NCBI RefSeq assembly: GCF_022230885.1
Contig: NZ_JAKGCT010000004.1
Span: forward strand, 124,001-188,000
Direction of reading: 5' to 3'
Source: Paenalcaligenes niemegkensis
Lineage (GTDB): Bacteria > Pseudomonadota > Gammaproteobacteria > Burkholderiales > Burkholderiaceae_B
DNA length: 64,000 bases
Both the position numbers and the translations under genes were made by a program. The notes beneath the pieces were generated by a model. The model did not search any database. It was not told the DNA's origin and saw only the letters and a program-made list of their open reading frames with translations. Shown piece by piece: positions 3,363-53,371 of the stretch (positions are counted from its first letter, which is position 1; every line of letters starts with the position of its first letter).

Positions 3363-4108
3363 CCTTGCTGGGCACAGGCAACGCAGCACAGGTTCCAGTG
3401 TACAACTGTGATTGCCTCGCCTGTATTCGGGCGCAAACAGACCTTCGCTATCAGCGTGGTCCATGTTCTGCATTACTTGAGTTTGATGATTCCCGCTGGC
3501 TGATTGATTCCGGTCTTACCGACCTTAGCCAGCGGTTTTCGCCCGGAAGCCTAAAGGGCATCCTGCAAACGCATTACCACGCTGACCACGCACAAGGTTT
3601 GCTGCACCTGCGGTGGGGGCAAGGGATTCGTATCCCTGTGCTCGGTCCACCTGATCCGGACGGGTTCGCAGATTTATACAAGCACCCCGGTATTCTGGAT
3701 TTCTCAAGAACACTTAAGGTTTTTGAGATCATTAATCTTGACGGACTGCAGCTGACCCCTGTGCCGCTAATTCATTCGAAGCTGACTTATGGCTATGTGT
3801 TCGCTAAAGAAGGAAAACGCTTTGCCTATCTGACGGATACGGTAGGCCTGCCAACGGACACCGAGGATTACCTGAAGGCCGAAACTATAGACGTACTGGT
3901 ACTGGACTGTTCGTTTCCCCCAAATGAGAAAATCTCTCGCAACCATAATGACTTCACCATGGCCATGAAGGTAGTGGAGACTTTGAACCCACGTCTGGCC
4001 GTTCTGACACACATAGGCCACGAGCTGGATGTCTGGTTGATGACCGAAGGTGTAAAGCTGCCTGCAGATGTGGTTATTGGCAGGGAAGGGATGTGCTTTT
4101 CCAGTTGA
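3353..4108 (+). CDS. phnP: Phosphoribosyl 1,2-cyclic phosphodiesterase PhnP
   Basis: PhnP opens the 5-phosphoribosyl 1,2-cyclic phosphate left after C-P cleavage, giving ribose 1,5-bisphosphate for PhnN. It is a metallo-beta-lactamase-fold enzyme. The 251-residue product shows the H74-x-H76-x-D78-H79 metal motif (HYHADH) and an N-terminal cysteine cluster CDCLAC at 19-24 that fits the extra structural zinc of PhnP. Further metal ligands are expected in THIGHELD near the C-terminus. It is the last phn gene here; an iron-regulated sigma gene follows after about 100 bases. Confidence 0.92.
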   Translation: MRLTLLGTGNAAQVPVYNCDCLACIRAQTDLRYQRGPCSALLEFDDSRWLIDSGLTDLSQRFSPGSLKGILQTHYHADHAQGLLHLRWGQGIRIPVLGPPDPDGFADLYKHPGILDFSRTLKVFEIINLDGLQLTPVPLIHSKLTYGYVFAKEGKRFAYLTDTVGLPTDTEDYLKAETIDVLVLDCSFPPNEKISRNHNDFTMAMKVVETLNPRLAVLTHIGHELDVWLMTEGVKLPADVVIGREGMCFSS

Positions 4109-4148
4109 TTTTTTGTAGAGCGTTGTAAACAGGCTATGCTCAACATTG

Positions 4149-4168
4149 GAATGAGAATCATTGTTATT
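4149..4168. promoter_or_regulatory. Fur box upstream of fecI
   Basis: The site reads GAATGAGAATCATTGTTATT and has a dyad AATGA-GAA-TCATT. It fits the NAT-repeat pattern of Fur operators and lies 39 bases before the sigma gene. A second site with 17 of 20 bases identical lies at 5891-5910 before the receptor gene. Iron-replete Fur would repress both transcripts. Binding is inferred from sequence only. Confidence 0.75.
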
Positions 4169-4206
4169 ATGCTGGTTTATTTCATCGGGCTCAGCCTCCA
4201 CTCATC

Positions 4207-4713
4207 ATGTCACGTCCACCTGTTCCCAAGAATGGCTGGCTCGCTCATTACAGCGAGCTAGTCGCGGCGTGGACGCGATGGGGAGCTAATCGCGAAGATG
4301 CCGAGGACGCTACGCACGATGCAATTGTCCGCGTCCTGGAAAAAGAGGTGGGCTCCCTGGTTAATTCGCGAGCTTATCTGCATCGCAGCGTACATAACCG
4401 ACTGATCGACGGGCATCGGCAATCCAGGGTCCTTGACGTGGTTTCTTTTGACGAGCTGGATGAGGCCGAGCATCCGGTGCTGACCGATCCCGATGCCCAG
4501 GCTCGAACCGAGGAACTGTTGGCCTCCTTGAAGATTGCTTTGACCGACTTGCCGCTTAAGTGCCGTCAGGTATTCTTGTGGCATCGGCTGGAAGGCTACT
4601 CTCAAAAAGAAATCGCTGAGAAGCTGGGTATTTCCGTTAATATGGTCGAAAAATATATGATTCGCGCGATCAGGCACCTTCGGAAACAGTTACAAAATCA
4701 TGCGCCACATTGA
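4207..4713 (+). CDS. fecI: FecI-type ECF RNA polymerase sigma factor
   Basis: This is a 168-residue extracytoplasmic-function sigma factor of the iron-starvation group. Region 2 covers about residues 12-80 (DAEDATHDAIVRV, then the SRAYLHRSVHNRLID promoter-melting helix). Region 4 covers about 110-160, with LPLKCRQVFLWHRLEGYSQ and the helix-turn-helix IAEKLGISVNMVEKYM. It is followed by a FecR-type anti-sigma regulator and a TonB receptor with a signalling domain, so it probably activates the receptor when the siderophore binds. A Fur box precedes it. No clear Shine-Dalgarno is seen before ATG 4207. Confidence 0.9.
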   Translation: MSRPPVPKNGWLAHYSELVAAWTRWGANREDAEDATHDAIVRVLEKEVGSLVNSRAYLHRSVHNRLIDGHRQSRVLDVVSFDELDEAEHPVLTDPDAQARTEELLASLKIALTDLPLKCRQVFLWHRLEGYSQKEIAEKLGISVNMVEKYMIRAIRHLRKQLQNHAPH

Positions 4714-4714
4714 G

Positions 4715-4757
4715 TCAGGGTTTTTACCTTCTCATACGTCTTACTTAATGAAGGGGT
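4715..4757 (+). promoter_or_regulatory. Probable FecI-type sigma promoter upstream of fecR
   Basis: TCAGGGTTTT, 12 bases of unconserved spacer, CGTCTTAC, three variable bases, then ATGAAGGGGT. The same conserved elements with the same spacing occur at 5933-5975 before the TonB receptor. CGTCTTAC resembles the CGTC-type -10 element of iron-starvation ECF promoters, and the upstream block would be the -35 region. The block straddles the fecI-fecR gap. Assignment to the adjacent sigma factor is inferred from repetition and position. Confidence 0.65.
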
Positions 4758-4771
4758 AGAAAATCATAACG

Positions 4772-5791
4772 ATGGCAACCCATCGGACTCCTGCTCGCTA
4801 TGAACACTCAAAAGCCGAACCTACCAAACGATCCCCTGCCGCCGCAGCCTACTGGTTTGCGCGCGTCCATTCCGGTAACTTCACCGTGGCAGAACGTGAG
4901 CGCTTCCAGCAATGGCGCCGCGCCAATCCTAACAACGAGCAAGAATACCGGGCATTGGATGAGATCTGGCAAGCGACCAGCATGTTGCCCAAAGACGAGC
5001 TGCGTGAACTGCTGGAGGCACCGAACTCACCGGCAGAGCAAGGCTGGATGACCCGACGGCGCTTGATGATCGGCGCTGCTTCAGTCTCTACTGCGGCGAT
5101 CATAGGAGCCGTGTTTCTTCGTGGACACGATCTATATCCTGCTTCCCATGTATTGCGTTATGTCACTGCCCACGGTGAGCAGCGCAAGGAAGTGCTGCCA
5201 GATGGGTCTGTAGTAGAAATGAACGTTTCCAGCGAACTGATTGTGAGCTACTACGCTAGCCGCCGTGTTGTCGAACTTATCAGGGGTGAAGCTTCCTTTG
5301 AGGTCGTTGCCAATTCCGAGCAGGTATTCACCGTGGTGGCGGATAACGTGGATGTCAGGGTCACGGGCACGGTGTTTAACGTAAGGCGTAATCAAGACCA
5401 TGTATCGGTTGCTGTTCAAAGCGGCTCCGTTGAGGTGTCTTCCGGCCGGTGGTGGAATCGTGAAACAGCCGTGCTGACTGCAGGCATGACGACTCATGCA
5501 TGGCCGGACACCCCTTTGTCTGTGGACGCAGTCAATGTCGCGGCGCTAACGGCATGGCGTCAAGGCAAGGTGGTATTCAGGGACGAACTCCTTGAAGACG
5601 TAGTGCAGGAAATGAATCGCTACCTGCGTGAGCCCATCTATCTGACGGACAGCCGGCTTAAACACCTGCGCATGGCAGGCGTGTTTAGCATTCAGGATGC
5701 CGAGGGCTTTTTACAGGCGTTGCAGACCCATCTTCCCGTTGTTGTTGTACACCGTCCGGATGGCGGCGTGAACCTGGCTCTGTTGCGCTAA
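4772..5791 (+). CDS. fecR: FecR-type anti-sigma regulator
   Basis: FecR proteins span the inner membrane, hold the FecI-like sigma factor inactive, and release it when the receptor's signalling domain touches their periplasmic part. The 339-residue product has the cytoplasmic anti-sigma domain (AAAYWFARVHSGNFT to NNEQEYRALDEIW, about 22-67), one membrane segment at about 97-116 and a periplasmic FecR domain with DGSVVEMN and GEASFEV motifs. ATG 4772 has no close Shine-Dalgarno; GAAGGGG at 4750-4756 is 15 bases upstream, and TAG at 4757 blocks extension. It lies 58 bases after fecI, behind the promoter-like block. Confidence 0.9.
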   Translation: MATHRTPARYEHSKAEPTKRSPAAAAYWFARVHSGNFTVAERERFQQWRRANPNNEQEYRALDEIWQATSMLPKDELRELLEAPNSPAEQGWMTRRRLMIGAASVSTAAIIGAVFLRGHDLYPASHVLRYVTAHGEQRKEVLPDGSVVEMNVSSELIVSYYASRRVVELIRGEASFEVVANSEQVFTVVADNVDVRVTGTVFNVRRNQDHVSVAVQSGSVEVSSGRWWNRETAVLTAGMTTHAWPDTPLSVDAVNVAALTAWRQGKVVFRDELLEDVVQEMNRYLREPIYLTDSRLKHLRMAGVFSIQDAEGFLQALQTHLPVVVVHRPDGGVNLALLR

Positions 5792-5890
5792 ACGTCAGTA
5801 CAGCTTTCTGATGTAGTCTTTTTATCACCTGGGTACGCTTATTGCACGCTCCCCGGTGCGGAGGCGGCTTTTGATTAGACGAACAATCCA

Positions 5891-5910
5891 GAATAAGAAT
5901 CGTTGTTGTT
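5891..5910. promoter_or_regulatory. Fur box upstream of the TonB receptor
   Basis: The site reads GAATAAGAATCGTTGTTGTT, matching the fecI Fur box at 17 of 20 positions. It ends 22 bases before the receptor's promoter-like block at 5933. Dual control, by Fur repression and by the FecI sigma, is therefore likely for the receptor gene. Confidence 0.65.
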
Positions 5911-5932
5911 ACAATTTAGATTCGGTTTTTGT

Positions 5933-5975
5933 TCAGGGTTTTCCGGAGCTCGTCCGTCTTACCTCATGAAGGGGT
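5933..5975 (+). promoter_or_regulatory. Probable FecI-type sigma promoter of the receptor gene
   Basis: This is the second copy of the block TCAGGGTTTT-N12-CGTCTTAC-N3-ATGAAGGGGT, identical in every conserved element and in spacing to the copy before fecR. The 12-base spacer is unrelated between copies, which argues for function over recent duplication. Transcription would start close to the ATGAAGGGG element. Confidence 0.7.
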
Positions 5976-6070
5976 GTTTTTTGTGCTGTGTGCCACCCCT
6001 TTGGGATCCTTTGGCCAAAGGGGTGGAGCATTGCGCTCGTAAGAAATACGTAACAGGAAACTTCTCGTGA
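5966..6070 (+). other. Possible 34-codon leader ORF overlapping the receptor start
   Basis: An ATG lies at the expected 5' end of the receptor transcript (5966). It opens a 34-codon frame starting MKGCFLCCVPPLWDPL and ending at TGA 6068-6070, which overlaps the receptor's GTG start (GTGA). No Shine-Dalgarno precedes it, so translation would have to be leaderless or nearly so. In the fecR copy of the block the same ATG runs only ATG-AAG-GGG-TAG. It may be a translational-coupling device or chance. Confidence 0.25.
5969..6026 (+). promoter_or_regulatory. Leader RNA with two mutually exclusive stems
   Basis: CCACCCCTTTGG (5993-6004) and CCAAAGGGGTGG (6015-6026) form a perfect 12-bp stem with a 10-base loop. 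The same CACCCCTT (5994-6001) can instead pair over 8 bp with AAGGGGTG at 5969-5976, at the transcript's 5' end. No U-run follows, so this is not a simple terminator. It lies between the inferred transcription start and the receptor start codon, where it could control expression or RNA stability. Confidence 0.5.
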
Positions 6071-8505
6071 TTGACAGGACCCCTCCTACTGCCCGCAAGA
6101 CGGGCGTTAAAAATAATTCGGCTGCGGCCTTCTCCACAACGTTGAGTCGTCTGGCCGTTGCTGGCTCCCTGGCTTTGATCAGTGTATCGCCGTCGGTATA
6201 CGCTCAGCAGAGTGCTGTGCAGATCAACATTCAACAGCAGTCTCTAAGCGAGGCACTGTTGCAACTGGGGCAGCAGACGCCTTTGCAATTTATCTACACT
6301 TCAGATTTGGTACAGGGGTATTCCGTGAGGCCGATCAGCGGCCAGATGGCCCCCGAGGAAGCTCTGCGTCGTTTGCTTGCGGGGACGGAGATCGAATACT
6401 CGCGTGAGGGAAATACAGTCAATCTGCGGCGTTCTGTGAACACGGCACAGTTAGCGCCCGTGACTGTAACCGGCACCATTGCCGAAGGTGAACTTCCCGT
6501 GCCGTACGCTGGTGGCCAGGTGGCGAGCGGCGGCGGGCTGGGGGTGCTAGGCTCTCAAGATGTGATGGATACCCCGTTCAGTACCACCAACTACACGTCG
6601 CAAATGCTTGAGGACCAGCAGGCCCGTACCCTGGCCGACGTAGTCGTCAACGAATCGTCGGTACGCATGATGACCTCTACAGGCAGTTTTAGTGAAGACT
6701 TCCAGATTCGCGGTTTCAATGTCACCAGTGGTGATGTTGGTCTGAACGGCCTGTATGGCCTGACCTCGTCTCACCGCATGCCAGCTGCGCTCATGGAGCG
6801 TGTCGAAGTCCTTAAAGGGCCTGGCACGCTGATGTATGGCATCAGCCCTAACGGCAGCATCGGGGGCAACATTAATATTGTGACCAAGCGGGCCGGCGAT
6901 GAGCCTTTGACCCGTCTGACCACGACCTACGAAAGCAAAGCGGTGCTGGGCGCTCATCTGGACATGGGACGCCGCTTCGGTACAGACAACCAATGGGGCA
7001 TCCGTTTCAACGGCGTATATCGCAATGGTAAAACCAGCCTGGACAATGGCCGACAGAAACTTGGCCTGGGCGCGCTGGCGCTGGATTATCGCTCGCCCAC
7101 GCTGCGATGGTCACTGGATACCTATGCGCAGCGCGAGAACGTCGACAGCTTCCGCTCACAGAACGGATTCCGTCCAGGTGTCTCGAATATTCCTGCGCCT
7201 CCATCCGGGCACCGCGCTATATACTCCGGCGCTGACCTGACCTCACGCGACGCGACGGTGGCCTCACGCCTGGAATACGATGTTTCCGACCGTCTCATGG
7301 TTTATGGTGCGGCGGGCTATCGTTACGGTGCCAGTGAGCAGGATTTTCCCTCGGCTCGGACCACCAATGCCGTCGATGCGCAGGGCAACTTCCGGGCTCT
7401 CAATGCTTGGTATGACGCCTATTCGCGTAACAAGACCGGCGAAATCGGTGCGCGCATGAACTTCGACACGCTCGGAGTCAAGCACGTGGTGAGCCTGTCG
7501 GGCTCGATACTGAAGTCGGAGGCAGGTAGTTTTTTCTTGTCGGCGCCAGTGAGCCAGACCATTGATTCCAACATTTATAATCCGGTACCGTTGATTCCGA
7601 TGACGGGTGAGCGTCACTCGCCGACTAAAGCCTCAGAGACCACACTTTCCAGCTTCTCGCTGACCGACACGCTCTCATTTGCTGACGGCAGGATCCTGAT
7701 TACCGGCGGCCTGCGCCAGCAGCGCGTGAAGTCGGAGAACTTCAACGCAGCAGGCGGGGTCACTTCCTCCTACGACGAAGACGCTATCTCGCCATTGGCT
7801 GGGATCGTTGTGCGGCCATTTGAGAACGTCTCGGTTTATGGTAACTTTACGTCGGGCCTGACTCGTGGCGGTACGGCTCCTGTCGATGCCGCCAACGCCG
7901 GAGAGGTGTTCGCACCCTACAAGTCCAAGCAGTACGAGGCTGGTGTGAAAGTGGACTGGGACCGTGTCATCACCACGGTTTCCGTATTTCAGATAGACCG
8001 GCCCAACTCGATGACTGATCCGGTTAGCAACATTTATAGTTTCGATGGAGAACAGCGCAACCGCGGACTTGAACTGTCCGCCGTTGGAGAAGTTATGTCC
8101 GGACTGCGTCTTATGGCCAGCGCCACCTTCTATGACGCAAAGCTGCAGCAAACTGCTGGTAGCGTGAACCAGGGAAACAAAGCCCATGGCGTGCCCAAGC
8201 GCACCTTTAATCTGGGTGCCGACTGGGACGTACCCTGGGTACAAGGTCTGAGCGTGAACGCGCGTGCCATTCACACCGCTGCAACGCCTTACGATGCCGA
8301 GAACACCTTGACGTTGCCATCGTGGACCCGTTACGACATGGGCGCGCGCTACCGCACGAAAGTCCATGGCCATCCGGTTACTTTACGGGCCACGGTAGAA
8401 AATGTGACCAACGAGAACTACTGGCTGTCTAGCAGTACGCTGCTGACGGTGGGTACTGTCGCGGCACCACGAACTGTTCTGTTGTCGGCAGAGATTGAGT
8501 TTTAG
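6067..8505 (+). CDS. TonB-dependent siderophore receptor with N-terminal signalling domain
   Basis: This 812-residue outer-membrane receptor has a signal peptide cut near residue 46 (VYA before QQSA). A secretin/TonB short N-terminal (STN) signalling domain follows at about 55-105 (LSEALLQLGQQTPLQFIY, then an EEALRRLLAGTEIEY segment). The plug domain comes next (VERVEVLKGPGTLMYG, about 245-260), then a 22-strand-type barrel ending in the aromatic terminal residue (EIEF). STN domains mark receptors that signal to a FecR/FecI pair, which fits the two genes upstream. Similarity is to ferric hydroxamate and pyoverdine-type receptors; the ligand cannot be named. GTG start behind AGGAAA. Confidence 0.92.
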   Translation: MIDRTPPTARKTGVKNNSAAAFSTTLSRLAVAGSLALISVSPSVYAQQSAVQINIQQQSLSEALLQLGQQTPLQFIYTSDLVQGYSVRPISGQMAPEEALRRLLAGTEIEYSREGNTVNLRRSVNTAQLAPVTVTGTIAEGELPVPYAGGQVASGGGLGVLGSQDVMDTPFSTTNYTSQMLEDQQARTLADVVVNESSVRMMTSTGSFSEDFQIRGFNVTSGDVGLNGLYGLTSSHRMPAALMERVEVLKGPGTLMYGISPNGSIGGNINIVTKRAGDEPLTRLTTTYESKAVLGAHLDMGRRFGTDNQWGIRFNGVYRNGKTSLDNGRQKLGLGALALDYRSPTLRWSLDTYAQRENVDSFRSQNGFRPGVSNIPAPPSGHRAIYSGADLTSRDATVASRLEYDVSDRLMVYGAAGYRYGASEQDFPSARTTNAVDAQGNFRALNAWYDAYSRNKTGEIGARMNFDTLGVKHVVSLSGSILKSEAGSFFLSAPVSQTIDSNIYNPVPLIPMTGERHSPTKASETTLSSFSLTDTLSFADGRILITGGLRQQRVKSENFNAAGGVTSSYDEDAISPLAGIVVRPFENVSVYGNFTSGLTRGGTAPVDAANAGEVFAPYKSKQYEAGVKVDWDRVITTVSVFQIDRPNSMTDPVSNIYSFDGEQRNRGLELSAVGEVMSGLRLMASATFYDAKLQQTAGSVNQGNKAHGVPKRTFNLGADWDVPWVQGLSVNARAIHTAATPYDAENTLTLPSWTRYDMGARYRTKVHGHPVTLRATVENVTNENYWLSSSTLLTVGTVAAPRTVLLSAEIEF

Positions 8506-27797: not shown

Positions 27798-30700
27798 TTA
27801 ATGAAAGTCTCGACTTTTTTTGTTGAGTGTGGGTAGAAGATGACTAAGGTCCACAATTCGTTTTGTTAGCAGGCTTTGTGTTTGTTGATGGGACTGCCAT
27901 ACACCAAAGGCCCCAAGCAATGTGGCATGCCGTAATATTTGGCGTTGCCGTTCGGCAGTGTCTGCATGCAAGATGAGATTTATTTGTCCGAACTCGTCTT
28001 CCAGTGTGATGAACACAACCCCTTTGGCCGTACCAGGGCGCTGTCGCACCGTGACCATTCCGCAGGTGCGAATCAGCCGTCTGTCGGGCTGATCAAGCAA
28101 TTGTTTAGAGCTTAAGTAGCGTCTGGCCTGTAAAGAGCTGCGAAGCAAGGCCAGGGGATGTGAGTTCAGGCTTATACCAGTGTGCTGATAATCGGACAGT
28201 AAATTACTGAGTTCATTGGGCTCGCTTAGTACGGGCCTATCTGTAGGGGCGTCAATAATAGGGCTTTCTTTTAATAGCCCTTTGTCAGGTAGACTGGCAC
28301 TGGCTTCCCAGGCAGCCTGGTGGCGATGGCCGGCCAGGCTTTGTAAGGCGCCTGCATAAGCTAAAACGTCTATTTCATGTTTGTTAAGCTGTGCGCGCTG
28401 TGCGGCATCACGCACTGAACTAAATATTTGAACGGCCCGCGCTTCTTCCAGGCGCCAGCCACAGTCTTGGTTTAAGCCTTTAATTAAATTGAAACCCAGG
28501 CGTACTGCGGGCCGTTGGGCAGGGCCCATTTCGAGTTTGGCCTCCCAGTCGCTGTGCAAGAGGTCAATGGGCAGCACCTGGACCCGATGCCGCTGGGCAT
28601 CTTGGATTAAGGTTGAAGGCGAATAAAAACCCATGGGCTGACTGTTGAGCAAGGCTGTTAAAAAAGCTTCAGGTTCATGGCGTTTTAGCCAGCTGCTGTG
28701 ATAGGCCAATAGAGCAAAGCTTGCTGCATGGCTTTCAGGGAAACCATACTCACCAAAACCTTCGATTTGTTTGAAGATTTGTATGGCGAAGCCTTCTTCA
28801 TAGCCATTAGTCTTCATACCCTCGATGATTTTGTGATAATACTTGCTGATGCCACCTTTGCGTTTCCAGGTAGCCATGGCGCGGCGCAGACCATTGGCAT
28901 CGTCTGCACTGAAGCCTGCAGCAATCATGGCGATTTGCATGACCTGTTCCTGAAAAATAGGCACCCCTAAAGTGCGTTCCAGCGCGGCTTTAAGCTCTTC
29001 TTTAGGGTAAGAGACTTCTTCGTTTTTTCTCTGCGCTTTAAGTAAGGATGAACCATGCCGCCTTGAATGGGGCCGGGACGAACAATGGCAACCTGAACTA
29101 CCAGATCGTAAAAGGTTTTAGGTTTTAACCTGGGAAGCATGGACATTTGCGCACGAGATTCAATTTGAAAGGTGCCGATGGTGTCCGCTGCCTGGATCAT
29201 GCGGTAGGTAGGGAGGTCTTCCTGTTCGATATCCTGTTGTGTAAAGGGGCCTTCCGGCGTTCGGAAACATAATCAAGGGCGCGGCGTATTACAGACAGCA
29301 TTCCCAGGGCCAGGATATCAACCTTTAAAAAGTTAAGCGCATCCAGGTCGTCTTTGTCCCACTGCACAATACGCCGATTAGGCATAGCGGCATTTTCTAT
29401 GGGAACTAATCGCTTTAGACTTTCCCTGCCAATGACAAACCCTCCTGGGTGTTGAGAAAGGTGGCGAGGAAAGTTGATAAGGCTTTCGCTTAGTATCAAC
29501 CACTGTTTGCTTTTTGCTGATGTCATGTCTACGCCGTATTCAGCCATGCGTTGAGCCACTTTTTCCCGGCCATCCCAGTAGCTATGGCCTTTGGCTACGC
29601 GATCAATGATTAAAGGATCTATGCCTAAAGCCTTGCCTACATCGCGCAAGGCACTTTTGGATCGGTAGGAAATCACCACTGCCGTAAGCGCCGCACGGTC
29701 TTTACCGTATTTATTATAAATATATTGAATGACTTCTTCGCGCCGTTGGTGCTCAAAATCTACATCGATGTCTGGCGGTTCGTTTCGTTCTTTACTGATA
29801 AAGCGTTCGAACAGGGTGGAGCTTTGGTCGGGGTCAACCTCGGTGATTGCCAGACAATAGCACACAGCGCTATTTGCCGCTGAACCCCGGCCCTGGCACA
29901 GTATTTGATGCTGACGCGCGAACTGCACAATGTCGTAAACCGTCAGGAAATAGGCTTCGAATTTTAGCTCTTGAATTAAGTCGAGTTCTTTCTCAAGCAG
30001 TTTTTGGACGTGCAGGGGTATGCCGTGGGGATAACGCCATCTGGCTCCTATGTAGGTTTGTTCACGCAAGTAATCGTGAGGATTGCGGTTTTCAGGGCAA
30101 ATTTCATAGGGATACTGATATTGAATTTGCGTTAAAGAGAAGTTGCAGCGCTGTGCAATAACCACGCTTTCCTGTAAATGTTCAGGCGCATAAATATTGG
30201 CCAGGCGTACCCGTGTACGCAGATGCAGTTCGGCATTGGCATAGCGCCGGGTCGCAGACAAAGCAATGGTCGTGGTGTGCGCAATGGCTGTTAAGGTGTC
30301 GAGCAGGGGCTTACGTGAACGTACGTGCATGTGTACGTTGCCCGTAGCCACTATAGGCATTTGATATTGGCAGGCCACAGTGGCTAGTTGCTGCTTGTGT
30401 TGAGCGTCGCGGCTGCGTAGCTGCAGATTAAGGCCTAGCCAGCAGCGGCCTTCGAAATGAGCCTTAAGCCATAAGGCTTGTGCTTGTAATTCTGCCTGTT
30501 TGGCGCAGTATTCTGGTAGCAGGATGGCCAGGCAACCAGGCATGGCCGTTAACAAGGGGTTTTCAGGTGCACTGATATCAGTGGTGTGCAGCAGATAATC
30601 GCCTTTTTTAACCCGCTGTCTTCCCAGGCTGATCAGTTCGCATAAATTATTATAGCCTTCGAGGTTTTGAGCTAATAAAACCAGCCTGAGGGGGACAGGC

Positions 30701-30942
30701 AGACTGGAGTCTTGCAAGCGAAACGAGGCACCAATAATTAACTGTAATCCGATCTCGCTGGCTTCTACATGCGCACGCACCACGCCTGCCACTGAGCATT
30801 CGTCTGTAATTGCAAGTGCTGTATATCCTAGTTGATGTGCCCGCTGAACCAGTTCGTGGGGATGTGAAGCTGCTTTTAAAAAGCTGAAATTACTTAGGCA
30901 ATGAAGTTCTGCGTAGTTAGGCAGTGCTGAAGTCAAAGGCAT
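27798..30942 (-). CDS. dnaE2: Error-prone DNA polymerase DnaE2 (two frameshifts)
   Basis: DnaE2 is the translesion polymerase of the ImuA-ImuB-DnaE2 mutasome. The N-terminal PHP domain begins [18 protein letters not shown]. The palm carries the catalytic aspartates in [16 protein letters not shown], and the C-terminal OB domain includes [19 protein letters not shown]. The frame breaks at the G4 run 29246-29249 and the T6 run 29033-29038 (plus-strand coordinates). One added base each gives about 1048 residues, the family length. ATG 30942 ([14 protein letters not shown]) is chosen over an upstream in-frame codon. imuB ends 11 bases upstream. Confidence 0.9.
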
Positions 30943-30953
30943 ATTGTCACCCC

Positions 30954-32399
30954 TTAGGCGAAAAGCCCGTGCAAATACCATTCGCCCTTGTCTTTAAGGT
31001 CTTGGTATATCCAGTATCTGGAGCCGTCCTTGGCTTCGGCAATAAAATAGTCTCGTGCGATAGGGGAATCCCACCAGCCGTCTTCCAGGCGTTCAGGGCC
31101 GGAAATCATGTATAAGGGTGAGGTGTAAAAAGGGCGATGTTGCCTGACGGTTAAAGGCAGAGGCTTGGGCAATAGCCAAAAAGGCCGGGGACCTGTGGGC
31201 AAGAGCGCTGCGGCGTTTTCTTGCTTGGGGTGGCTAAGCCACCGATTGGCGTGCTCGGGCCTGTAGTCAGCAAGGGGAGCGGCTTCAAAGATGGCGTTTT
31301 CACCCAGACGGGCCTTTAGCAGGTCAAGTAAAGGAGGAAGTTCAGCCATCGCCCCGACAGGGTCAGGAAATAAGCTCTGGCTTTGAGTCTCGCGCGCCTG
31401 GAAATAATTAACCTGCAAAGAGATAGCAATGACAGGCGCGGGCAGGGTGTAGTGGTTCAGATGTTCTTGCAATAGTCGGGCCAGTACGACTGGGCACCAG
31501 CTTGGCGAACCCAGCTTCAGTTCCAGCAGACTTGGGCTAAGCAAATGAGGGGCACGTTCATGTTCAAGATAAAGAGATAATTGATTAATCGATAGCTGAT
31601 GTGCTTGCAGCCAGCCACAAAGCTGTTCGATTAAACGCTGAGCGCGGTATTGTATGGCCGAGGCATGTTCGACACTGTCGTAAAGCTCGATTCTGGTGTT
31701 GAAGGTATCGGCTGCTTCTAAAAAGGCCAGGTGTTCGGGTTCTTTACCCAGGGCCTGATCCAGTTCGCTTAGCAGCAAGGGCGAGGTTCGGCGCAACAGG
31801 GCAGCCCGAGGCAGTGCGGCAAGGGCGCCCAGATTGGTGCAGCCAATAGCGCTTAGCCATGGTAAATGAGCCTGTGCCCGCTGCAGGTGTTCGCAAGAAA
31901 TTGGTGCTAACAAACGGCCCAGGCGTTTAAAGCTCAGGGTACGGTGCTGGCGCCCAGGGCTATGCAGCAGTAAAAGTGAGCCGGTGGCGGTAGGGGCCAT
32001 TGAGTGTCTGGACTTATAGCCACTGCGTTTCAATAGACTGCGTATGGCTTTGTATAAACGTAATGGCCCGCCAAATAGTCGAAGGCTGGCGCTGACATGC
32101 AAGGTGATGGTGTCTGGCCCTGTCAGGCTGACTTCAGGGGTGTATTGCATAAGGCTGATACCCACTTGTTCAAGCAGACGGGGCGCGGCCATGGGATCCA
32201 GGGGAATGATTTTGCAATCGGCGCATAGGGTAGGGACGCCGCCGACGCGCATGCCGGTACGCACTCCGGCAGCACTGGCAAGTGGCGAACAGCTAAGCAC
32301 CACATCACGGTCAATGATGGCGATGGCCTGTGTAGGCCAATTCGGATTGTGGGCGTCCAGCTGCAGGTGTGGAAGTTTTATGCTGATCCAGCAAAGCAT
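30954..32399 (-). CDS. imuB: ImuB, Y-family-polymerase-like mutasome subunit
   Basis: ImuB is a catalytically dead Y-family polymerase homologue that bridges DnaE2 to the beta clamp in SOS mutagenesis. The 481-residue protein begins MLCWISIKLPHLQLDA, without the catalytic acidic residues of active Y polymerases. It has the helix-hairpin-helix-like LSAIGCTNLGALAALPRAAL and ends in a basic aromatic tail typical of the family (SRYWIYQDLKDKGEWYLHG). Its first 89 bases overlap imuA. Confidence 0.9.
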   Translation of the reverse strand: MLCWISIKLPHLQLDAHNPNWPTQAIAIIDRDVVLSCSPLASAAGVRTGMRVGGVPTLCADCKIIPLDPMAAPRLLEQVGISLMQYTPEVSLTGPDTITLHVSASLRLFGGPLRLYKAIRSLLKRSGYKSRHSMAPTATGSLLLLHSPGRQHRTLSFKRLGRLLAPISCEHLQRAQAHLPWLSAIGCTNLGALAALPRAALLRRTSPLLLSELDQALGKEPEHLAFLEAADTFNTRIELYDSVEHASAIQYRAQRLIEQLCGWLQAHQLSINQLSLYLEHERAPHLLSPSLLELKLGSPSWCPVVLARLLQEHLNHYTLPAPVIAISLQVNYFQARETQSQSLFPDPVGAMAELPPLLDLLKARLGENAIFEAAPLADYRPEHANRWLSHPKQENAAALLPTGPRPFWLLPKPLPLTVRQHRPFYTSPLYMISGPERLEDGWWDSPIARDYFIAEAKDGSRYWIYQDLKDKGEWYLHGLFA

Positions 32400-43613: not shown

Positions 43614-44959
43614 ATGAATTACCCGGCACATGATCAGGTGTTTTTGACGGCTTCATTAAACCTTAAAGCGCACTGGATGCCTTTCAGTGCTAACCGCAAC
43701 TTTCAGCATGACCCCCGCATGGTAGTGGCGGCCGAAGGTAATTATTTAATTGACGAAAAAGGCCGGCGGGTGTTTGATGCCCTGTCGGGTCTTTGGACAT
43801 GTGGAGCAGGGCATTGCCGCGAGGAAATCAAGTACGCCGTGGCAAAACAGCTTGGTACGCTTGACTACGCACCGGCTTTTCAGTTTGGTCATCCGCTTTC
43901 GTTTAAGTTCGCAGAGGAACTTACGGCTCTGGTGCCAGACCCTTTGAATCACGTCTTTTTCACGAATTCGGGCTCCGAAGCAACTGACACGGCCGTGAAA
44001 ATGGCCCGTGCTTATTGGCGCATTAGGGGCGCGCGCAAAAGACCAAATTAATCGGACGGGCGCGTGGTTATCATGGCGTCAATGTCGCGGGCACCAGTTT
44101 AGGTGGTATAGGCAGTAACCGAAAAATGTTCGGTCAGCTAATGGATGTGGAACATCTTCCTCATACCTTGCAGCCTGAACTGGCCTTTACTAAAGGGGCA
44201 GCCCAAACCGGAGGTATAGAGCTGGCAGACGAACTGCTGAAGCTGATTGAGCTGCATGATGCTTCAAATATTGCAGCAGTCATGATTGAGCCCATGTCTG
44301 GCTCGGCGGGTGTGATTGTACCGCCAGAGGGATACCTGAAACGCTTGCGTGAAATTTGCGATCAGCATGACATTCTATTGATTTTTGATGAGGTTATTAC
44401 CGGTTTTGGCCGTTTGGGGAAAAACTGCGCTGCTGAATACTTTGGTGTAACGCCTGATCTGATGACCATTGCCAAGCAAATTACCAACGGCGCGGTGCCC
44501 ATGGGAGGAGTTATTGTCTCGAAGGACATTTACGACACCTTTATGGGACAAGACTTACCCGAGCACGCTGTTGAGTTCGGCCATGGCTACACCTACTCGG
44601 CGCATCCTGTTGCCTGCGCGGCCGGCCGTGCTGCGCTTGAACTCTTGCAGCGGGAGCAACTGGTCCAACGCTCTGCTGAGCTGGCGCCGCACCTGGAAAA
44701 AGCCATTCATCAATTACGGGGAACTAAACACATCGTAGATATCCGTAATTTTGGCTTGGCGGGTGCGATTCAGTTGGCGCCCCGTGATGGCGATGCCACG
44801 ATACGTCCTTTTGAAGCAGGCCTGGCCTTATGGAAAGCGGGGTTCTATGTGCGTTTTGGCGGCGACACGCTGCAGTTCGGCCCCACTTTTACCACCAGTC
44901 CTGAGGACCTGGATCGCCTGTTCGACGCGGTAGGTGAGGCCATTAGTAACGTAGCCTGA
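43614..44959 (+). CDS. bauA: Beta-alanine:pyruvate transaminase (frameshifted)
   Basis: This class III PLP transaminase moves the amino group of beta-alanine (or other omega-amines) to pyruvate, giving malonate semialdehyde. Motifs: HWMPFSANRNFQ, FFTNSGSEATDTAVKMARAY, LLIFDEVITGFGRLG, and the PLP lysine in IAKQITNGAVPMGG. The frame breaks in the G4 run 44026-44029; adding one G gives RIRGRAQKTKLIGRARGYHG and a 448-residue product in which the PLP lysine is K288, the usual position in BauA-type enzymes. The product is used by MmsA next door. Confidence 0.92.
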
Positions 44960-50802: not shown

Positions 50803-50917
50803 ATATCGTTGTATGCTATGACTTTATAAACTTATAGAGTCGTATTTAAACGAAAAGTTCGCACTGTTTCGAGAAAGATGAGATTATAAGCATAACTTTT
50901 TTAAATTGGAAGCTCTT

Positions 50918-53371
50918 TTGGTTAAAAAATCTCAACAACCAACTTATAACAAGTCGGCCGGCGACGGTTCGTACGAGTTGCCTCCTGATTTTGACCCTCA
51001 AATTCCTAGCCGTGAAGCCATTCTGCAGTTGTTACGAGATAACAGCGACTCACTGACAGTCGATGGCCTGGCAGCCTTAACAGGGATCAGTTTCCCTCTG
51101 CCTGTGGGTGCTGAACGTCGCTTGGCAGCGATGCAGCGCGATGGGCAAATCGTTATAGACGCTGAAGGCCTGATCACTGCGAGCAATCAAACAGAGTTTA
51201 TTGCCGGACGCGTGCAGGGCCATCGTGACGGTTTTGGCTTTTTAATACGCGATGACCGCGGTCAGGATTTATTTCTGGCGCCACGAGAAATGTTGCGTGT
51301 TTTGCACGGTGACCGCGTGCTGGTGCGGCCCGATGGCGAATACCGTGGTAAGCCCGAAGCCGTTATTGTTGAAGTGCTAGAGCGGCACACAGATAAGCTG
51401 GTGGGGCGCTTTGTATCCGAGCACGGCATTTATACCGTTATTCCAGAAGACCAGCGTATCAAGCACGACATTCGCATCGCGCCTGCCGATATCGGCAAGG
51501 CCAAGCCCGGACAAGTCGTCATGATCGAGATTACGCGCCAGCCTGCGCGACACACACAGCCTATGGGCAAGATCATCGATGTGCTGGGTGAAATCGATGA
51601 CCCGGGCATGGAGATCGAAATTGCAGTGCGTAAATTCGATGTGCCATTTGAGTTCAGCGATGCCGCCTTGCGTCAGTCAGAACGTGTTCCTGAGCACGTG
51701 CGGCAATCTGAATTTAAAGGTCGCCTCGACCTGCGCGACTTGCCCTTCATTACGATTGATGGTGAAGACGCCCGCGATTTTGATGATGCAGTCTATTGCG
51801 AAGAAATCAACGTGGGCCGCGGTTTGCGGCATCGGCCAGGCTGGCGTCTGTTAGTCGCTATTGCCGACGTCAGCCACTATGTGCGTCCGGGCGATGGTAT
51901 AGATCATGATGCCCTTGAGCGCGGCACCAGTGTGTATTTTCCGCGTCGCGTTATTCCGATGCTGCCCGAAGCCTTGTCCAACGGCATTTGCTCTCTGAAT
52001 CCCGCGCAAGACAGGCTGGTCCTGGTCTGCGACATGGTGATTCCCGCCGATGGAGCTACTGAAGGCACAGTCACCGCCTACCAGTTTTATGAAGCGGTTA
52101 TTCATTCGCATGCACGCACGACCTATACCGAGGTATGGGAAGCCTTGCAGCAGCCTACGGGACCTGCAGCTCAGGGGTGTCCGAGGTTCTGGAGCAGCTT
52201 CAGTCCTCTTATGGTCTATACCGTGCGCTGGCGCAACAGCGCAAGAACCGTGGGGCCATTGATTTTGATACCGTCGAAACAAGAATTGTGTGTAATCCGC
52301 TGGGGCGAATTGAGCGTATTGAACCTTTGGTTCGTAATGATGCCCATAAGCTGATTGAAGAGTTTATGCTGGCTGCCAACACCTGCGCGGCAGATTTTAT
52401 GTCACGCAATCGCCGCAATGGATTGTATCGTGTGCACGAAGGCCCTACTCCCGAGAAACTTCTTAAGTTTCGCGAATACTTGCGAACTTTGGGTTTAACG
52501 CTCGAAGGCGGAGACGAACCGTCTACGGCCGATTATGCTGCCGTAATACAGCAAGCCAAGGGCCGTAGCGATTTTGAAATCATACAGACCATGTGCCTGC
52601 GTTCGATGCAACAGGCCATTTATAGTCCTGAAAAGGCAGGTCACTTCGGACTGTCTTACAAGCTATATACACACTTTACCTCGCCCATTCGACGTTACCC
52701 TGATCTGCTGACGCATCGGGTAATCAAGAGCATCTTGCACGGCAAACGCTATCGCCCTGATATCGAAGAAGAGCCCGGTGATGAGCAGCTCAGCGTCGCC
52801 AAGCGCGAATACATTCTATGGGAACGCCTTGGAACAATGCTTTCAGAGCGTGAGCGCCGTGCTGATGATGCGTCTTACGATGTTCAGGCGTGGCTGAAGT
52901 GCTTCTTTGTTAAAGAACACGTCGGCGAGGTCTTTAGCGGCAAAATTACCGGTGTGGCTAATTTCGGTATTTTTATCACTTTGGATACGTTGTTCGTAGA
53001 AGGCATGGTTCATATTTCTGAACTGGGTTCCGACTACTTCGTCTATAACGAATCCACCCATGATTTACGGGGTGAGCGCACCGGTCTGCGGTATAAGTTA
53101 ACGGATGCGGTGCAGGTTCAGGTGGCACGAGTCGATCTTGAAGCAAGACGTATTGATTTCCGTTTGGTGCAAGGGACCAGCTTTAAGGCGTTAACCGGGC
53201 CGGGCAATGCCGACCGTACAGGCCGTCCTCAAAAAAGCGGCGTCTACCAAACCTAAAGAATTGCAAGGAACCACCTCAAGTCAACGTCGGGCTGCAGCTA
53301 AAAAGGCCGCCCGCGATCAGGCAACAAAAGCCCGATCCGAGGCTCGCAAAGCAAAGCGTCAAAAGCGCTAG
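50918..53371 (+). CDS. rnr: Ribonuclease R (two frameshifts)
   Basis: RNase R is a processive 3'-5' exoribonuclease able to degrade structured RNA. It has cold-shock domains (GRVQGHRDGFGFLIRDD), the RNB catalytic domain (ITIDGEDARDFDDAVYCEE, holding the active aspartates), an S1 domain (GVANFGIFITLDTLFVEGMV) and a Lys-rich tail. The frame breaks at the G4 run 52174-52177 (one base missing) and the A6 run 53231-53236 (one extra). The repaired tail reads AASTKPKELQGTTSSQRRAA, then AKRQKR, and stops at 53371, 817 residues. TTG 50918 is taken because GGAAG lies 5 bases before it. Confidence 0.9.

Follow-up and report, generated by a model that had tools for sequence, protein, structure and literature searches.

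Probable paired FecI-type promoters at a fecI-fecR-receptor locus of Paenalcaligenes niemegkensis and a predicted leader RNA on the receptor message

FecI-type systems are a textbook example of how signals at the outer membrane reach transcription. According to a published review (PMC9249621), the sigma factors of iron uptake activate neither their own gene nor that of their anti-sigma factor. HasI and hasS of Serratia form the contrast, as HasI drives hasS, and the -35 regions of hasS and hasR have TTTACGGGTTT in common. The same review reports that mutations downstream of the Escherichia coli fecA start strongly reduce transcription.

The locus analysed here lies in a 64,000-nucleotide stretch of the genome of Paenalcaligenes niemegkensis (hereafter the window, whose numbering is used throughout; Table 1) and is described from its sequence. 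With FecI-FecR-FecA of E. coli it shares the gene order of sigma factor, anti-sigma factor and STN receptor, as well as a FecI-type promoter before the receptor gene (predicted in the window), and the weight of downstream sequence in fecA transcription (PMC9249621) is a further likeness. E. coli differs in that its fecI and fecR overlap by 4 bases with no promoter between them, in that fecIR is given as not autoregulated in the same review, and in that -35 and -10 elements of the window's type were not seen by eye upstream of fecA. The heme system HasI-HasS-HasR of Serratia marcescens resembles the locus in having one -35 element before both the anti-sigma and the receptor gene, in a sigma factor that drives both of these genes (predicted here), and, as we count it, in the Fur regulation of hasI itself (PMC9249621). 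Unlike that system, the window has a FemA-like receptor of siderophore type rather than HasR and different -35 letters, and it adds a conserved block after the -10 element and a predicted leader RNA on the receptor message.

Table 1 Features of the locus, in window coordinates
Feature	Position	Strand	Basis or remark
Fur-box-like sequence AATGAGAATCATTGTTATT before fecI	4150..4168	+	sequence
fecI-type ECF sigma factor gene, 168 aa	4207..4713	+	Pfam, TIGR02937
-35 element, predicted fecR (IR) promoter	4715..4724	+	exact match; same place in 13/93 loci
-10 element CGTCTTAC, IR promoter	4737..4744	+	
ATGAAGGGGT block, where the fecR transcript is predicted to begin	4748..4757	+	two-copy identity 68% over 13 loci
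fecR-type anti-sigma gene, open frame	4772..5791	+	Pfam
Fur-box-like sequence before receptor promoter	5892..5910	+	sequence
-35 element, predicted receptor (PR) promoter	5932..5942	+	
-10 element CGTCTTAC, PR promoter	5955..5962	+	
ATGAAGGGGT block; 5969-5976 = predicted P1 5' strand	5966..5975	+	
Predicted P1 3' strand CACCCCUU	5994..6001	+	rival 12-bp hairpin favoured in this species
Predicted P2, AU-CCUUU-GGCCA-AAGGG-GU, almost invariant	6006..6024	+	contains palindrome CCTTTGGCCAAAGG 6008-6021
Predicted P3 hairpin GAGC-AUUGC-GCUC	6026..6038	+	
TonB-dependent siderophore receptor gene with STN domain, GTG start	6067..8505	+	Pfam, TIGR01783, 8s34

The fecI product has both ECF sigma regions 2 and 4 (Pfam Sigma70_r4_2, PF08281, 6.7e-15; Sigma70_r2, PF04542, 2.2e-5; Sigma70_ECF, 2.4e-5) and scores 82.6 bits against TIGR02937 (cut-off 42.9), and the fecR product matches FecR (PF04773, 2e-18) and DUF4880 (PF16220, 1.2e-11). 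The thresholds of the NCBIfam equivalogs were reached by neither product (FecI, NF041727: 59.8 of 260; FecR: 109.3 of 385). The receptor carries PF00593, PF07715 and PF07660, the last being the N-terminal STN signalling domain, and scores 326.6 bits against TIGR01783 (TonB-siderophor; cut-off 223.5). It is not of the HasR type (HasR E 1.4e-5, best stretch query 46-203); its nearest solved structure is FemA of Pseudomonas aeruginosa (8s34, E 4.9e-163), a likeness drawn for the receptor. FemA belongs to the FemI-FemR-FemA system. Judged by gene content, fecI, fecR and the receptor gene appear to form a FecI-type cell-surface signalling system.

FecR of most close relatives starts with M-x..PNLP.DP..AAAYWFARV or a similar sequence; the window's N-terminal codons that correspond to it (from about 4801) are out of frame with the rest of fecR, and the start of the gene (4772-4860) looks either frame-shifted relative to those relatives or re-started at 4772. 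Other window genes also look broken: error-prone DNA polymerase and RNase R each extend over two ORFs, PhnM gives a partial model match, and an aminotransferase is without its first third (27798-30981, 50906-53256, 1625-2581 and 44126-44959), which points to assembly indel errors or decaying genes. In a locus of the same genus (L224, genome G182), fecI has an in-frame TGA, although the locus retains its two promoter copies and its leader.

The original prediction held that one promoter-like block is repeated with identical element spacing before fecR and before the receptor gene. This was borne out, as TCAGGGTTTT-N12-CGTCTTAC-N3-ATGAAGGGGT occurs at 4715-4757 and again at 5933-5975, and the 42-base pattern fits 4715-4756 and 5933-5974 with 0 mismatches, followed by T in both. 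No third copy was found in the window at up to 3 mismatches, and none in 100 dinucleotide shuffles of it. A search of the whole genome (3.67 Mb, 7 contigs), proposed along with the prediction, was positive: GGGTTTT-N10..14-CGTCTTAC was found at only these two places (reversed control: 0), and matches were obtained in the family as well. The spacers had been described as different, which holds for most of their length; 4 of the 12 positions are identical, and three of these make up a CTC shared in register. One copy stands between fecI and fecR, a single base separating the fecI stop from TCAGGG, and the other lies 5' of the receptor gene. We liken AATGAGAATCATTGTTATT and the second sequence so labelled in Table 1 to the Fur consensus. 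A GTTACAAATTA-like sequence also occurs at 5908-5918 and in relatives, about 13-25 bases 5' of the receptor -35 element; a simple GTTACAAATTA pattern lies within 60 bases of 9 of 15 promoters with the palindrome leader described below and of 14 of 75 without it.

For comparison across loci, we drew on the 80 highest-ranking of 318 FecI relatives, all in named genomes, and on 20 further stretches from genomes of the same GTDB family. Eight named loci (L095-L102) were swapped for the same loci from the genome set, which gave 93 loci (the window, 20 family stretches and 72 named loci), or 92 distinct ones because L105 and L234 are one locus. An order-level FecI protein search at E 1e-30 matched 2 of 399 genomes, the own one included, and was too sparse, so the family was used instead; a class-level pattern matched 2 of 369 genomes, of which one was the window's own and the other had no block. 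The core TTCAGGGTTTT-N11..13-CGTC, scored out of 15, was searched in the fecI-fecR gap (IR copies) and in the stretch before the receptor (PR copies). The receptor-promoter script missed L225, L231 and L232, whose receptors are far away; these were positioned by hand, and L225 was included by hand in the IR/PR comparison and all three in the purine-run count below. A scan of viral contigs with the core pattern gave 92 stretches.

A PR core (at least 11 of 15) was present in 90 of the 93 loci, including the three placed by hand, and among the 87 copies found by script the spacer was 11 bases in 64, 12 in 22 and 13 in 1, a spacer of 12 occurring in most loci of the window's clade. An IR copy (at least 12 of 15) was found in 13 of the 93 loci from 9 genera, compared with 4 of 3720 shuffles: three loci in the window's genus, two each in g33 and g3, and one each in g32, g6, g4, Nitrosomonas, Herbaspirillum and Nitrosospira. 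Its 11-base core begins 1 base past the fecI stop in 12 of these loci and 2 bases past it in the other. The gap from the fecI stop to FecR residue 24 is widened in all 13 (106-139 bases) and is below 100 bases in 73 of the 80 loci without an IR copy; the remaining seven have gaps of 100-368 bases and still no IR copy. The fecI-fecR distances of L230-L232 are unreliable because the FecR match starts at residue 95, a start seen in L101 and L102, which are the same loci as two of these three. Within the window's clade many loci show the IR arrangement, and among the 16 loci with a FecI identity of 57% or more, 9 have an IR copy. The aligned receptor segments of the 13 loci, the window's own excluded, are about 24-88% identical, values which are quoted from the first aligned segment and vary with the segment. 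Close (88%) and remote (24-30%) receptors thus stand behind conserved promoter elements, which ties the motif to the sigma factor.

Within the 13 loci, the IR and PR copies are 81% identical in the -35 element, 36% in the spacer and 88% over CGTC and TTA; the block is 68% identical and the next 15 bases 23%. Directly before CGTC, 10 of the 13 IR copies have A, compared with 0 of the 13 PR copies (Fisher p 1e-4), a difference which orthologous descent can explain as well as tuned promoter strength. These comparisons bear on the view that the copy between fecI and fecR is a functionless leftover of a duplicated receptor promoter, fecR being expressed from the fecI message only, as in E. coli. 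The identity of the elements, the absence of the copy from 80 of the 93 FecI loci and the 4-base overlap of the E. coli genes are consistent with such a leftover; yet the position of the copy is constant across the 13 loci, from 9 genera, although most of its spacer has changed, and it has the class-specific base before CGTC, so that we regard this explanation as very improbable.

The two blocks are instead best read as sigma-dependent promoters, a claim of the original prediction that gains support from the 13 IR copies fixed in place and from PR copies kept across differing receptors. Before the anti-sigma gene there is a predicted sigma-type promoter sharing the elements of the receptor promoter, and transcription of fecR by the sigma factor whose product it would restrain is, as had been proposed, a sound and well supported prediction, with HasI and hasS as precedent. 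The promoter pair itself, as far as sequence can tell, is well supported but ordinary and belongs to a familiar type; its anti-sigma loop has a single documented precedent.

The conserved sequence after the -10 element, which standard ECF promoter models were said not to explain, is real, as the fall in identity just downstream of the block indicates; a role in the promoter only had to be revised, because in the receptor leader the block also appears to form a strand of P1. When the family was searched with the block left unspecified, 12 matches were obtained in 11 of 268 genomes (reversed pattern: 0), and 9 of the 12 have a ATGAAGGG-like block by eye; the pattern ends in 'not A', so some copies were dropped, including the window's own fecR copy. 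Many Pseudomonas relatives (L120-L174) share a long conserved stretch after the -10 element and before the receptor, e.g., CAACTGCAACTGGTTTGCATTA, which is unlike the GAAGGG block. A hairpin is also seen between the fecR promoter and the fecR start (4771-4792 in the window, and the IR leaders L220, L222, L224 and L225 of its closest relatives), its variants CGAUGG/CCAUCG, CUGAUGG/CCAUCGG and CCGGCGC/GCGCUGG being apparently compensating changes. A mini-ORF in the fecR copy (ATG AAG GGG stop, or alike) was considered and rejected; it occurs in the window and four relatives and is absent from the other copies.

In aligned receptor leaders, a second conserved element, the palindrome CCTTTGGCCAAAGG, follows about 40 bases past the block. 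A search of 268 family genomes located it 45 times, in 30 of them (reversed control: 9), ten genomes having two to four copies. Among 44 distinct places examined (the remaining one, in the receptor leader of G204, had come up in the leader alignment), 37 precede a receptor-like ORF, whose start is a GTG 42-50 bases on in 36 cases and an ATG in one; the other seven places comprise four in one genus and three elsewhere. In those four genomes of one genus (L256-L259) the palindrome lies inside or beside a reading frame unrelated to receptors. The GTG starts (leaders L240-L285), assigned by spacing and frame, are unusual as a conserved choice. Some copies stand behind promoters with other -35 and -10 elements, such as TTTACGGGGTT and CTCTTT (by eye). 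The leader is narrow in range, since its exact form, palindrome plus spaced GTG, was found only in the window's own genome among 250 genomes of the order; the Herbaspirillum locus L104 has the exact palindrome and matches the covariance model R1 introduced below with 37.5 bits.

Block and palindrome tend to occur together. Of 15 promoters followed by the palindrome (13 or more of its 14 bases), 12 have a purine run at the block, compared with 7 of 75 promoters without the palindrome, a count that leaves out L159 (no receptor-promoter score), L238 and L239 (score 10). The three palindrome promoters without the run read GACGGGG and represent two distinct loci, and L228, L229, L233 and L119 have no clear block in the receptor copy. 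The fecR copies have the block and no leader: a local hairpin involving the G run is predicted only in the fecR leaders of L233 and L235, and in the others, the window's included, the run is predicted to pair distantly or not at all. RNA pairing can therefore not be the whole reason for the block.

This last observation fits a reading in which the block is a DNA promoter element that aids polymerase opening or escape with this sigma factor, P1 having evolved around it. The same altered block stands in both copies of L228, and PMC9249621 reports that mutations past the E. coli fecA start lower transcription, both of which agree with that reading. However, the block accompanies the palindrome leader even behind quite different -35 and -10 elements (by eye), it is uncommon without the leader, and its partner strand covaries. 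We consider an exclusively DNA-level role possible, at somewhat less than an even chance. Because the fecR copies keep the block without a leader, we consider both roles plausible: the block may act as promoter-proximal DNA in both copies and as a P1 strand in the receptor message.

The predicted order of the receptor leader is P1, the almost invariant CCUUUGGCCAAAGGG hairpin (P2), P3 and the GUG start; L250, L252 and L275 have no P3. Covariation was assessed on 25 leaders of less than 80% identity. Against dinucleotide shuffles, the P1 region had a mean z of -1.99 (combined -9.9) and the P3 region one of -0.93 (combined -4.6). The own strands of a leader also pair better than swapped ones, as 0 of 3000 permutations were as good for P1 and 0 of 5000 for P3. 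A first P2 register (CCUUU/AAAGG, loop GGCC) was replaced by a slipped one that uses the third G (stem CCUUU/AAGGG, loop GGCCA). In this register, from which 3 of the 25 leaders were omitted as they have no such G, the outer pair is formed in 19 of 22 leaders compared with a shuffled mean of 10.1 (0 of 10000 as good), by A-U, U-A, G-C, C-G and G-U pairs; a second outer pair gave no covariation beyond chance (13 of 22 versus 12.2). The inner P2 stem has a mean pairing probability of about 0.5-0.6 within the hairpin (37 leaders), with competing folds in several leaders. In a structure-fitted alignment, 97.3% of cells pair and 9 of 15 pairs have changed on both sides, figures that are partly circular. 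RNAalifold on a sequence-only alignment of the 37 leaders returned the invariant P2 alone with no covariation, since P1 does not align by sequence, for which reason the swap tests were used instead.

A rival account takes the palindrome, which sits some 50 bases inside the receptor leader, as the DNA operator of a dimeric regulator, and a perfect, almost invariant 14-bp palindrome before many receptors is what such an operator would look like. Yet covariation of the flanking pair follows the slipped RNA register and does not extend the dyad, the variant CCTTTGGCCAAGGG alters one arm so that the dyad is broken and a G-U pair is kept, and P1 and P3 on either side covary. An operator is therefore improbable in our view, and a leader acting as RNA remains the preferred interpretation.

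The leader of the window itself is predicted to fold otherwise. A 12-bp hairpin (5993-6004/6015-6026) dominates and excludes P1 and P2, with a minimum free energy of -42.6 kcal/mol versus -24.4 kcal/mol when P1 and P2 are forced, and P1 and P2 have probabilities near 0. This 12-bp alternative is absent from the predicted folds of G177 and G182 of the same genus (L262, L263). The modelled fold may be a quirk of the species or a switch, or P1 may be dispensable.

A covariance model, R1, was built from a seed of 25 leaders on the first P2 register rather than the slipped one; 12 of the 37 leaders were left out as near-duplicates, for having no clear P3, or for low P1 under a 5-pair rule. Among 171 family genomes, 17 contained R1 matches, 27 in total, and within the 3-kb locus a receptor-like match lies downstream of all 27 and FecR-like and FecI-like matches lie upstream of 24 and 23, respectively. 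The exact palindrome is present in 21 of the 27, a count not independent of the seed. Six matches were new, all of them between FecI/FecR-like and receptor-like matches, and their commonest variant, in 4 of 6, is CCTTTGGCCAAGGG. In a set of 60 sources, 14 had an R1 match with E no higher than 0.01, one locus being counted twice; no match was obtained for L103, L119, L226-L229, L233, L235 or the Pseudomonas loci supplied. Covarying P1 and P3 around P2, before receptor genes, were thus found for the bacterial family, the features by which we would propose a new RNA family.

Like the cis-acting leader RNAs of Rfam 15, the receptor leader is a predicted structured 5' leader preceding genes that it may control. 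It differs in exceeding no curated gathering threshold: no Rfam 15 family reached its gathering score in 8 leader loci, and in the window (4100-6150, E up to 5) there were three chance-level matches far below gathering scores. Titles and abstracts on leader RNAs of TonB receptors and on sigma-driven anti-sigma genes, from a literature collection with few subscription journals, yielded nothing on this leader. The leader RNA, being absent from Rfam, would be the new part of the finding, and a hairpin role of the block is likely on the sequence evidence.

Taken together, we think it quite probable that twin FecI-type promoters switch on fecR and the receptor gene, with the block starting the transcripts and serving as a P1 strand in the receptor leader. 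The sigma factor would read both copies and turn on both genes, and the extra FecR made during signalling could allow a fast switch-off when the signal ends, as has been argued for HasI-HasS. The conserved block is likely the start of both transcripts. In the receptor message it would supply the 5' strand of P1, with which a leader begins that presumably acts as RNA. We favour this leader as a post-transcriptional module whose almost invariant CCUUUGGCCAAAGGG hairpin would tune how the message is translated or how stable it is. The block may also act as DNA in the first steps of transcription. We lean, with modest confidence, towards the broader proposal that FecI-controlled receptor messages of the family start with a new leader RNA, made up of a P1 formed from the first transcribed bases of the promoter, the CCUUUGGCCAAAGGG hairpin, P3 and the GUG start. 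It would be a common post-transcriptional handle on diverse receptors under several FecI-type sigma factors, promoter and RNA overlapping.

If this is true, a conserved leader on diverse receptors would add a second, RNA-level layer to FecI-type signalling and imply a candidate common partner. The leader offers an explanation for conserved sequence downstream of such promoters and makes that explanation testable. The presence or absence of the IR promoter from lineage to lineage provides natural pairs of loci in which the effect of anti-sigma feedback on the response may be tested.
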